This document shows, one piece after another, positions 2,776 through 9,192 of a DNA stretch of 46,550 nucleotides (position 1 is its first letter; each line of letters opens with the position of its first letter). The stretch is from Clostridia bacterium. GTDB lineage: Bacteria > Bacillota > Clostridia > Oscillospirales > Acutalibacteraceae. Location of the stretch: assembly GCA_017516315.1 (NCBI GenBank), contig JAFXDE010000017.1, forward strand, positions 1-46,550. Reading direction: 5' to 3'. Under the pieces are notes generated by a model, which did not search any database, had not been told where the DNA came from, and saw nothing but the letters and a program-made list of their open reading frames with translations. Position numbers and translations under genes: made by a program.

Positions 2776-3102
2776 ATGGCTCATAATATTATCGGAGCAG
2801 TTATATGTGCTCTGGCAGGTTTTCTTATTGCTTATGTGAATTATATTCTGAGCAGGAAAATCCTTGAGACCCATCCTGAAAAGCTGGCTCTTTCCACTGT
2901 GGCAAGACAGGTAATACAGGTGGGATATCTTATAGCCGTTTATTTTATAGGCTCAGGACTTACCGTAAGCCTTACTTATCTTCTGGTAGGTGCGGTAATC
3001 GGAATGACGGTGCCGATGCTTTTCTTTACTAAAAAGCTTCTGGCGGTCAATGAAGGCCTCAGCCAAAAGACAAATAAAGGAGAGGAGGATGAAAATGGGT
3101 GA
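2776..3102 (+). CDS. atpI: AtpI-like ATP synthase assembly protein
   Basis: A 108-residue membrane protein with three to four hydrophobic segments (roughly 5-25, 45-62, 64-90) and an acidic, polar C-terminus. Sequence motifs are weak; the call rests on size, topology and its place directly before atpB. AtpI proteins are thought to help c-ring assembly or magnesium supply. The start is the ATG with GAGGTGAT just upstream. The stop codon overlaps the start of atpB, indicating translational coupling. Confidence 0.65.
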   Translation: MAHNIIGAVICALAGFLIAYVNYILSRKILETHPEKLALSTVARQVIQVGYLIAVYFIGSGLTVSLTYLLVGAVIGMTVPMLFFTKKLLAVNEGLSQKTNKGEEDENG

Positions 3103-3766
3103 AAAATCCGAGGTAATTATCAGACTTTTCGGTATTCTCGATGTTACGGGTGAAGTCGTTACCATGTGGATAATTCTCGGTGTGCTTACTGTAGTTTCTC
3201 TCATAGTGAAGCTTAAGCTTAAGGAGCGACCGGGTAAATTTCAGAATGTTATCGAAACAGGCGTCGAATATCTCGATAATTTCTTTACGGATATTCTCGG
3301 TAAAAAGAAGGCGAGAAAATATTTTACCTTCCTTGCATCGCTGTTTATTTTTATTATTTTCTCGAACTATTCGGGTCTGATTCCCGGTGTAGGTCTTACG
3401 GATTATGTCAAGGCGCCTACCGCATCTTTGTCTGTTACGGCGGGTCTCGGTATACTGACCTTCCTTTTCCTGCAGATTTCAGGTCTTCGCCATAATGTGA
3501 AGCATTATTTCAAACGCTTTGTAATGCCTATGTTTTTTATGCTTCCGCTTCTTGTTCTGGACGAATTTATTAAGCCGGCATCCCTGGCACTTCGTCTTTA
3601 CGGTAACATATTCGGCGAGGAAATGGTAACAGAGGAGCTTTATCACATCTTTCCTATAGGAGCACCCGTTATTATGATGGCGCTGTCCCTTTTATTCTGT
3701 GCGCTGCAGGCTATGGTTTTCACTATGCTTGTATCGATATATTTAGAAGAAGTAACAGAAGACTGA
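3095..3766 (+). CDS. atpB: ATP synthase F0 subunit a
   Basis: A 223-residue integral membrane subunit that forms the ion half-channels next to the c-ring. The segment LALRLYGNIFGEEMV near residue 170 carries the essential arginine of subunit a in its usual LRLxGN context. Five hydrophobic segments are visible. ATG 3095 is preferred because AGAGGAGG (3081-3088) lies six bases upstream; ATG 3089 is in frame but too close, and the longer open frame from 3050 has no ribosome site. The start overlaps the end of atpI. Confidence 0.93.
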   Translation: MGEKSEVIIRLFGILDVTGEVVTMWIILGVLTVVSLIVKLKLKERPGKFQNVIETGVEYLDNFFTDILGKKKARKYFTFLASLFIFIIFSNYSGLIPGVGLTDYVKAPTASLSVTAGLGILTFLFLQISGLRHNVKHYFKRFVMPMFFMLPLLVLDEFIKPASLALRLYGNIFGEEMVTEELYHIFPIGAPVIMMALSLLFCALQAMVFTMLVSIYLEEVTED

Positions 3767-3805: not shown

Positions 3806-4036
3806 ATGACAAATTCAGCAATTATCGCAATCGCAGCAGCAATCGCAATCGCAATCAGTACACTCGGTCCCGCAATCGGTCAGGGTATGACAGCTAAGGC
3901 AGCTATGGAAAGCATCGCCCGTCAGCCTGATGCGGCAAAGGATATCCGTTCCACACTTATCATTTCTCTTGCTCTTATGGAGGCTCTTACTATTTACGGC
4001 CTTCTTATCGCTTTTATGCTTGTTAATAAAATCTGA
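3806..4036 (+). CDS. atpE: ATP synthase F0 subunit c
   Basis: A 76-residue hairpin of two membrane helices joined by the polar loop ARQPDAAKD, the rotor ring subunit. The ion-binding carboxylate is Glu59 in MEALTIYG. Helix 1 carries GPAIGQG, whose Pro and Gln resemble Na+-binding c subunits, but the residues after Glu59 are Ala-Leu rather than Ser-Thr, so the coupling ion is unclear and H+ is the safer guess. AAAGGAG precedes the ATG. A 39-base gap follows atpB. Confidence 0.95.
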
Positions 4037-4477: not shown

Positions 4478-6688
4478 ATGGAATTCAAATATGTTATAAT
4501 AAACTTTATTATTCTGGTTGCCGTTCTCGTTATAGTAGGAAGAAAAACCGTAAAAAAGCTTTTCGGCGGCAGATATGAAAGAATAAATAAAGAGCTCGAC
4601 AGGGCAGAAAAAATAGAAAAAATGCCTATGCCTGCTTCAGAAACAGCTTCTGCTGAGGTATGTATTCCCGATTGCAGCGAAGAGGTAAATAAAGCAGAGG
4701 GCCTTGTTGCGGAAAAAATAGCATCTATTGAGGCCTTCGGTGAAAGAGAGAAAAGTGAAATTCACCGTGAAATGATTGAGGAAGCGAGAAAAGAGCTTTT
4801 TTCAGTAATGAAGGAGAATGTAATCAGTCTTTTCTCTTATGAAAAATATGAGAATGCCATAAGAGAGCTTGACAGACAGGTTATAGATGAAATTCTTAAA
4901 AGAATTACTCTCACTCCCGGTGATATGGCTTATCTTAAGCACAGCGATGTGCTTTATGTAACTCTTACATCGGCTTACCCCTTATCCGAGGATATAGTGG
5001 CAGATGTGGATAAGGCTACTTCTGAGATGCTTGAGGCCGTCGGAGGTAAAACCTCTTTGTGGGTACTCGAGGATAAGGAGCTTATCGGAGGCCTTCGTCT
5101 TCGTATAGGTGATACCGTTTATGACGGTACGGTAGCAGAGGAGCTTTATCAGTTCGGAAAGAACTTGAGCCGAGAGCCGATAATGCACGACGACACCGTA
5201 GGACATCTTATTCAGGAATTTACCGAAAAAGCAGAAAGCTTCAAGCCTCATATTCATCAGTATCAGCTCGGCAGAGTAATGACCGTTTCCGACGGTATCT
5301 GCTGGATGGACGGTCTTGCCGATATTATGTACGGTGAGGTCGTAGAGTTTGAATGCGGTGAAAGAGGTATGGTTCTCGACATTCAGCAGAACCGTATCGG
5401 CTGTGTTATCTTCGGTGAGTTTGAGCATATCGAAAGCGGAAGCCGTGTAAGGCGTGTGGGAAGAATCGCTTCTGTTCCCGTAGGCGAATGTCTTTTAGGC
5501 AGAGTAGTGGATGCCATGGGTAAGCCTATCGATGCTATGGGCTATCTTCCTTATAAGGAGACCAGACCTATCGAATATAAGGCTCCCGGCATATTAGATC
5601 GTGCTCCCGTTAATTCACCTCTCCACACAGGTATAAAGGCTATTGATGCTCTCGTTCCGATCGGTAAGGGTCAGAGAGAGCTTATCATCGGTGACAGACA
5701 GACGGGTAAAACCGCTATTGCCATCGACACTATCATAAATCAGAAGGGCAAGGATACAGTATGTATCTATGTTGCTATCGGACAGAAGGATACCCTTGTA
5801 GCAGAAATAAAGGAAAAGCTCGAAGCCGGCGGTGCTATGGAATATACTACTATCATCGCAGTGCCTGCCTCTGCTTCTGCGGCACTTCAGTATATAGCAC
5901 CCTTCTCAGGCTCTGCTATGGCTGAATACTTTATGTATGCAGGTAAGGATGTGCTTATCGTTTACGATGATCTCTCAAAGCATGCCGTAGCTTACCGTGA
6001 GCTTTCTCTTCTTCTTCACAGACCCTCGGGCCGTGAGGCTTATCCCGGAGATATCTTCTATCTTCATTCCAGACTTCTCGAAAGAGCAGCGCACCTTTCC
6101 GATGAGCTCGGCGGAGGCTCTATCACGGCTCTTCCCATTATCGAAACTCTCGCAGGTGACATCTCTGCTTACATTCCTACCAATGTCATTTCCATTACTG
6201 ACGGTCAGATTTTCCTTGATGCAGAGCTTTTCAATGAGGGTCAGCGTCCTGCCGTCAATGTAGGTCTTTCCGTTTCACGAGTAGGCGGTGCGGCACAGAC
6301 TCCCTCTATGAAAAAGGTTTCATCCTCTCTTCGTACCCGTCTCGCTCAGTACAGAGAATTAGCTGAATTTATGCAGTTCGGCTCTGACATAGACGATGAG
6401 ACGAAAAAAACTCTTGCCTCGGGCAGACTTCTTACGGAAGCACTTCGTCAGCCGAGATATGCTCCTATCGAGGACAATATGCAGACTGCGCTTATCTTCG
6501 CCGTAAGCAACGGCTATGCCGACGGAATCTCTCCCGATGAAATGGAGAAATTCGAAAAAGAGCTTTACAGCTTCCTTAAAGATAAAAAGTCGGCTCTTGC
6601 TCTAAGACTTAAGGAAGCAAAGAAATTTGACGATGAGCTGAAAAATGAACTCATTGAAGCTCTGAATGAGTTCAATGCGAGGTCATAA
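4478..6688 (+). CDS. atpA: Fused ATP synthase b'-delta-alpha polypeptide
   Basis: One uninterrupted 736-residue frame. Residues 5-22 are a membrane helix; 25-145 are a charged, partly helical stalk like subunit b; about 157-232 match the C-terminal beta domain of delta (SAYPLS, then ELIGGLRLRIGDTVYDGTV); about 236-736 are a complete alpha subunit with the P-loop GDRQTGKT and the conserved VGLSVSRVGGAAQT segment. The N-terminal six-helix domain of delta is absent. Gene order F-H-A of normal operons is kept, as if neighbours had merged. I chose ATG 4478, four bases after atpF, and not the upstream open frame from 4409. An in-frame ATG at 5183 would give a stand-alone alpha of 501 residues, a typical alpha length, with only weak GAGAG upstream. 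Alpha is noncatalytic but binds nucleotide and contacts the stator. Identity of the alpha part is certain; the fusion could in principle be a sequencing artefact. Confidence 0.92.
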   Translation: MEFKYVIINFIILVAVLVIVGRKTVKKLFGGRYERINKELDRAEKIEKMPMPASETASAEVCIPDCSEEVNKAEGLVAEKIASIEAFGEREKSEIHREMIEEARKELFSVMKENVISLFSYEKYENAIRELDRQVIDEILKRITLTPGDMAYLKHSDVLYVTLTSAYPLSEDIVADVDKATSEMLEAVGGKTSLWVLEDKELIGGLRLRIGDTVYDGTVAEELYQFGKNLSREPIMHDDTVGHLIQEFTEKAESFKPHIHQYQLGRVMTVSDGICWMDGLADIMYGEVVEFECGERGMVLDIQQNRIGCVIFGEFEHIESGSRVRRVGRIASVPVGECLLGRVVDAMGKPIDAMGYLPYKETRPIEYKAPGILDRAPVNSPLHTGIKAIDALVPIGKGQRELIIGDRQTGKTAIAIDTIINQKGKDTVCIYVAIGQKDTLVAEIKEKLEAGGAMEYTTIIAVPASASAALQYIAPFSGSAMAEYFMYAGKDVLIVYDDLSKHAVAYRELSLLLHRPSGREAYPGDIFYLHSRLLERAAHLSDELGGGSITALPIIETLAGDISAYIPTNVISITDGQIFLDAELFNEGQRPAVNVGLSVSRVGGAAQTPSMKKVSSSLRTRLAQYRELAEFMQFGSDIDDETKKTLASGRLLTEALRQPRYAPIEDNMQTALIFAVSNGYADGISPDEMEKFEKELYSFLKDKKSALALRLKEAKKFDDELKNELIEALNEFNARS

Positions 6689-6690
6689 TT

Positions 6691-9192
<2,502 letters not shown>

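Follow-up and report, generated by a model that had tools for sequence, protein, structure and literature searches.

The atp operon and the fusion gene

The window, the whole 46,550-nucleotide stretch of Clostridia bacterium DNA that was analysed, carries an F-type ATP synthase operon. Its genes lie in the order small membrane protein (at the atpI position), a, c, b, the fusion gene, gamma, beta and epsilon (Table 1). The fusion gene is a single frame of 736 codons that begins with ATG at 4478 and ends with the stop codon at 6686-6688. The original prediction, in which one gene encodes a b' anchor with its stalk, a delta C-terminal domain (CTD) and a full alpha subunit, was borne out both by the Pfam and NCBIfam domains within the frame and by relatives that have the whole architecture. 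Directly 5' of the operon (153-2615) is an 820-residue frame of cysteine-rich tandem repeats.

Table 1 Features of the atp operon in the window and the parts of its fusion gene
Feature	Position	Strand	Basis or remark
Small membrane protein, atpI position	2776..3102	+	No family match above cut-off (Pfam, NCBIfam)
a subunit (start codon approximate)	3098..3766	+	PF00119
c subunit	3806..4036	+	PF00137
Separate b subunit, 141 aa	4048..4473	+	PF00430, 30.1 bits
b'-delta(CTD)-alpha fusion gene	4478..6688	+	One open frame, 736 codons plus stop; Pfam and NCBIfam domains; relatives
b' part: membrane helix (about residues 1-25) and stalk (to about 145)	4478..4912	+	ATP-synt_B; profile match
Delta/OSCP CTD (about residues 146-230), N-terminal domain absent	4913..5167	+	PF00213
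Linker into alpha (about residues 231-261)	5168..5260	+	Contains non-conserved ATG 5183-5185; junction alignment with PDB 9JC1 chain I
Alpha core: beta-barrel, nucleotide-binding and C-terminal domains	5261..6685	+	PF02874, PF00006, PF00306; TIGR00962
gamma subunit	6691..7515	+	PF00231
beta subunit	7517..8917	+	TIGR01039, 770.8 bits
epsilon subunit, 92 aa, beta-sandwich domain only	8914..9192	+	PF02823

The Pfam ATP-synt_B family (PF00430, cut-off 28) matched residues 3-49 of the fusion chain with 25.8 bits when the whole chain was used and 29.1 bits when the N-terminal 235 residues were used. Profile matches of this part to the b subunit of Bacillus PS3 (about 1e-6) extended over profile positions 3-131. 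With a separate b gene just upstream, the b-like segment of the fusion is an additional copy, of b' type. The delta CTD was recognized by the OSCP family at residues 152-230 (40.4 bits, cut-off 22.3), the match covering only profile positions 96-172 of 172; positions 1-95, which represent the delta N-terminal domain (NTD), the part that binds the N-termini of alpha, found no match in the fusion chain. The proposal that neighbouring genes had merged is supported, with one addition: b', delta and alpha do share one frame, but the delta NTD is gone, so that loss of a stop codon between neighbours would not suffice to produce the fusion. The alpha part is complete. Its Pfam domains span residues 265-732, and the NCBIfam atpA model scored 711.5 bits (cut-off 484.45) over residues 249-734, covering profile positions 12-499 of 503. 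In none of the 33 class I sequences (defined below) is alpha a separate chain; it begins within a longer frame in all 33.

The fused frame is conserved and under purifying selection

We searched 59 genomes, the window's own included, of which 34 belong to the window's genus, and use class I for the whole b'-delta(CTD)-alpha chain in one frame. A full-length match in one stop-free frame was found in nine of the 34 genus genomes (again counting the window's own) and also in G055 and G054, which belong to other families of the same order. A first check of class I gave 21 stop-to-stop frames, 19 of them distinct (two loci repeat others), and the total came to 33 sequences with distinct alpha cores and stop-to-stop frames of 736-823 residues. 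The architecture sought in related genomes is thus present both in the genus and beyond it. Among the 19 class I sequences that were aligned, identity to the window's protein fell as low as 56%.

Between the window and nine relatives, synonymous differences were 0.44-0.81 per site. The dN/dS values were 0.05-0.23 for the membrane helix, 0.08-0.17 for the stalk, 0.06-0.12 for the delta CTD, 0.04-0.12 for the linker and 0.05-0.10 for alpha, ranges that omit two stalk and two linker values owing to saturation. Every segment, the junction included, is under purifying selection. No fall in synonymous change was seen at the linker in these nine comparisons.

The window's genome is a draft in 57 contigs, in which an assembly error might have deleted a stop codon or introduced a frameshift at the boundary of atpH and atpA, but the chance of this is negligible given 33 distinct sequences that hold the frame open at identities down to 56% and at the synonymous divergence given above. 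Because these sequences share the architecture in stop-free frames, the fusion is no sequencing error, and we rejected that source for it, in agreement with the earlier argument from the window's own reading frames that a missing base does not explain the fusion. Close relatives with separate atpH and atpA genes, the finding named beforehand as speaking against the fusion, were not found among the 34 genus genomes. The fusion itself is established.

The surroundings are also shared. A homologue of the small membrane protein occupies the same place in eight of ten class I relatives examined; the stretches of the other two (L036 and L043) begin too late. Epsilon is short (81-104 residues) in all eight class I relatives in which it falls inside the stretch, and it has 142-143 residues in two loci of class II, the CTD-alpha fusions described below. 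The c subunit has the motif EALTIYG, which we take to be proton-type and chloroplast-like, in all 16 readable class I loci (18 examined) and in L044, the locus of an uncultured Clostridiales (RUG044).

Free alpha and free delta

An ATG at the junction (5183-5185) was a candidate internal start from which free alpha could be made. However, internal initiation is no conserved feature, because only eight of the 19 aligned class I sequences have a junction ATG and four lack any ATG, GTG or TTG at residues 218-267. No Shine-Dalgarno match of more than three bases precedes ATG 5183 (the best is GAG). Given the unconserved start, the weak upstream GAG and the lack of synonymous constraint in the linker, we rejected this candidate. 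Alpha may be freed from the chain by proteolysis.

The window's genome (82% complete) gave four ATP-synt_ab matches, which are the fused alpha, beta and a pair on contig C16, and its sole OSCP match is the fused one. Hence, profile matches found no second F-type alpha or delta in this 82%-complete genome. The C16 pair (L002 and L003, frames of 592 and 461 residues) resemble V/A-type A and B subunits in size and order. A V-type A-B fusion considered in G016 was discarded since its two genes are separate.

Across the genus, 11 of the 34 genomes had an OSCP match, and all 11 matches lie within a frame that also holds alpha, nine of them class I and two CTD-alpha (G003 and G029). No separate delta was seen in any of the 34. 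The remaining 23 of the 34 genomes had no OSCP match, so that the F-type enzyme is unevenly spread over the genus. Some genomes with the fusion also have another alpha. G126 carries two F-type operons (L168 and L169), one class I and one standard, G410 has a second alpha match and a full delta besides class I, and G416 has both a class I and a class II enzyme (L164 and L152).

Distribution and a graded series of delta-alpha fusions

A sample of 394 genomes of the order gave an alpha match at 1e-100 in 206. The whole class I chain was present in 17 of the 394, all checked stop to stop, and an eighteenth case (G177) is cut at a contig edge. By a hand count among the matches listed, at least 39 further matches begin inside the delta segment and reach alpha with no intervening stop; ORF checks covered 20 of these 39 (18, plus G053 and G038). 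These fusions form several types. Class II consists of CTD-alpha proteins of 578-606 residues without a b' part (L152-L162), with an ordinary b gene (160-184 residues) directly upstream in 10 of the 11 loci, the exception being L156. In L151:1541-3568 (G133) two delta CTDs precede alpha in tandem, in L146-L150 a delta with a shortened NTD is fused to alpha, and L145:1625-3667 (G366) has a 680-residue frame that encodes a full-length delta and alpha as one protein. Pfam confirmation for these types comes from L145, L149, L151 and L023, the only ones run.

Most of the OSCP matches listed for the order are full separate deltas. One separate delta of 251 residues (L166:2399-3154, G170) has an extra CTD. 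Two genomes of one genus (G051, L026:1396-1614, and G092, L167) have a free-standing 72-residue delta, consisting of the CTD only, between b and an ordinary alpha; by the published reasoning on stalk number, given below, such a CTD too might allow more than one stalk.

Outside the order, class I was sought in 391 genomes of the class and 398 of the phylum, samples that include some order members. In the class sample only the window's own sequence passed an E value of 1e-244, and in the phylum sample only the window's own and G867 passed, the G867 match containing an internal stop. A rumen contig titled Chloroflexi (L042) carries a class I operon, and its alpha nests among Clostridia sequences on the alpha tree; it is either a mislabelled genome or a case of transfer.

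Phylogeny of the alpha cores

The alpha tree was built from 102 alpha cores with the fused extensions left out, as a quick tree with SH-aLRT support only, in which 29 of 99 forks are open. Class I makes up one side of a branch (33 rows, SH-aLRT 100), and its sister is L044 (SH-aLRT 99). Unlike the window, L044 has the parts split over two genes, the first encoding b' with one or two CTD-like repeats (319 residues) and the second CTD-alpha (581 residues). Beginning at its own start and continuing through the CTD, the b'-CTD protein aligns with the b'-delta part of the window's chain (BLASTP 1e-7 in a single comparison, 21% identity; hhalign 96.8%). Its CTD-like repeats (L044:4015-4971) were unseen by Pfam, and the assignment is based on the two-sequence BLASTP and the profile match.

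Of 20 rows labelled class II by length, 16 join the tandem L151 in a 17-row clade (98), which is nested among full and shortened delta-alpha fusions. The strays are L155, just outside the clade, L028 and L083, which lie elsewhere, and L044, which goes with class I. Because class I (with L044) and the main class II clade are separate on the tree, the delta CTD was fused to alpha on two or more occasions. Within the second of these lineages, the branching order is consistent with a course in which fusion came first and loss of the NTD later. As L081 (separate delta) and L067 (not fused) sit inside this delta-alpha grade and the tree is a quick one with the open forks given above, fusion or fission may instead have happened repeatedly. 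On the tree, class I members are not grouped by family but interleaved, which suggests transfer of class I between families.

Comparison with known systems

The closest known structure is an engineered enzyme. Ueno et al. (Nat Commun 2025, 16:5410; PMC12229609) described a Bacillus PS3 delta-DeltaN-alpha FoF1 (PDB 9JC1 and 9JC2). According to the passages of that paper used here, the delta NTD of the ordinary enzyme lies on the pseudo-three-fold axis of F1 and, by this position, restricts it to a single stalk. Deletion of this NTD and fusion of the CTD to alpha gave enzymes with as many as three stalks and three a-subunits by cryo-EM, an a-subunit being present on every stalk observed. Few particles on the grids had three stalks, which was ascribed to stalk loss. 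The H+/ATP ratio of the engineered enzyme was 5.8 versus 3.0, and its equilibrium proton-motive force was 68 versus 133 mV. The same passages point to natural delta-DeltaN-alpha genes (Acidaminococcus fermentans; UniProt G4Q3K6 and A0A1I2C5T3) for which multi-stalk enzymes were predicted, remark that nature may already break the one-stalk rule, and call for a multi-stalk enzyme with lasting stalks (PMC12229609).

Like the window's protein, this construct lacks the delta NTD and has the delta CTD joined to the alpha N-terminus, and the epsilon CTD is missing from it as from the window's epsilon. The b'-delta-junction profile of the window found its best PDB match in chain I of 9JC1 (1.1e-8), with a gap of one residue in the alignment over the junction, and among the 60 PDB chains listed that chain alone matched from delta through alpha (179-729). 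The difference lies in b: the passages of PMC12229609 have separate b subunits and mention no b fusion, whereas in the window b' is part of the same chain as alpha, and therefore the stalk cannot detach from F1.

The second-best match of the same profile (2.8e-7) was the mycobacterial b-delta protein (PDB 7JG5 chain d), in which, as in the window, a b'-type anchor and stalk are fused to delta; a b-delta fusion is also mentioned in the passages seen of PMC5709465. The mycobacterial protein has 445 residues and a separate alpha chain (7jg5_A), whereas the window's protein has only the delta CTD and continues into alpha, so it is not of the mycobacterial type, in which b' and delta are fused and alpha is separate. 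Closer in taxonomy are the class II proteins of the same order (L023 and L152-L162). These share the delta CTD fused to alpha without a delta NTD but, unlike the window's protein, have no b' part, mostly have an ordinary b upstream and belong to a different alpha clade.

The original prediction knew of no extension of a b-delta fusion into alpha. A b-delta-alpha fusion was indeed not found in the titles, abstract openings and passages covered among open-licence PMC papers, but joining of the delta CTD to alpha is already in print, as the engineered protein together with the remark on natural ones (PMC12229609). As b-delta and delta-DeltaN-alpha were known separately, what would be new is their combination, the single clade, the split-gene sister and the graded series. 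Judged from the sequences, the new elements appear to be the fusion of b', the membrane subunit of the stalk, onto delta CTD-alpha, the confinement of class I to one order in the genome samples (apart from the contig titled Chloroflexi) and the grades from full delta-alpha to CTD-alpha in the second lineage.

A proposed multi-stalk ATP synthase

One stalk and one a-subunit, together with the c-ring, set the H+/ATP ratio of an F-type ATP synthase, and F1 holds three alpha subunits. As alpha is needed three times, each F1 should have three b'-delta arms, provided that the chain stays uncut. This consequence goes beyond the original prediction, which had the peripheral stalk covalently tied to F1 but did not consider the number of stalks. 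Since there are three alphas per F1 and the stalk-limiting delta NTD is missing, we propose a multi-stalk enzyme. The chain would rise from the membrane beside F1, reach the top of F1 and continue into alpha, so that each alpha would bring its own delta CTD and membrane-anchored b', and each b' arm could pair with a separate b. Such an enzyme would have two or three stalks, covalently attached, and probably more than one a-subunit. As in engineered delta-DeltaN-alpha, this would increase the number of H+ used per ATP, so that ATP could be made when the proton-motive force is low, a property well suited to a gut anaerobe that lives by fermentation and has an Rnf pump. RnfC is present in the window's genome (483.5 bits), which is consistent with life on a small ion gradient but no proof of such life.

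We consider it probable that b'-delta(CTD)-alpha is a working F-type subunit and that it assembles into a naturally occurring FoF1 with more than one stalk and a higher H+/ATP ratio. The fuller version, in which there would be three covalent b/b' stalks, each with an a-subunit, an H+/ATP ratio nearing the c-ring number and an origin independent of the CTD-only lineage, we put forward tentatively, with the balance somewhat against it. Several observations count against a multi-stalk enzyme. The full-length delta-alpha of G366 clashes with the NTD as the limit on stalk number, an exception that could be reconciled if the fused NTDs were displaced. G126 and G410 carry alphas besides the fusion, and three-stalk particles of the engineered enzyme were rare. 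Possible release of alpha by proteolysis and the incompleteness (82%) of the window's genome also weigh against it. The G366 protein, with three alphas, would present three delta NTDs to one axis, a case outside the published rule.

In a different reading only one stalk works, two of the three arms being removed by proteolysis or lying idle beside the rotor, which leaves one full-length chain to act in the stator. A single stalk and a single a-subunit are found in the natural F-type enzymes known so far, as stated in the passages of PMC12229609, and full delta-alpha (L145), which by the published reasoning is unable to sit three times on the axis, does exist; moreover, we infer the stalk stoichiometry here from sequence. 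However, the linker is as conserved as its neighbours, which does not point to a disposable cleavage region, no conserved internal start would provide free alpha, and the delta NTD that would enforce a single stalk is absent. We therefore regard this reading as unlikely, though deserving serious weight.

In V-type enzymes several stalks hold the head against torque. Somewhat similarly, three b'-delta arms might be present with one a-subunit, the extra arms resisting torque and the H+/ATP ratio remaining unchanged. This agrees with each alpha bringing an arm, and the number of a-subunits cannot be read from sequence. As the engineered enzyme had an a-subunit on each stalk seen (PMC12229609, as far as its passages go), we think this arrangement quite improbable.

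The multi-stalk ATP synthase has so far been shown only in a laboratory-engineered enzyme, and these gut bacteria may build one naturally. With a stalk part fixed to F1, one per alpha, class I is a candidate for the enzyme with lasting stalks that was called for. The series of separate delta, full delta-alpha, CTD-alpha and b'-CTD-alpha offers candidate intermediates in the loss of the single-stalk rule. If the fuller, three-stalk version is true, class I would be an ATP synthase in low gear, fitted to cells that live on a very low proton-motive force.
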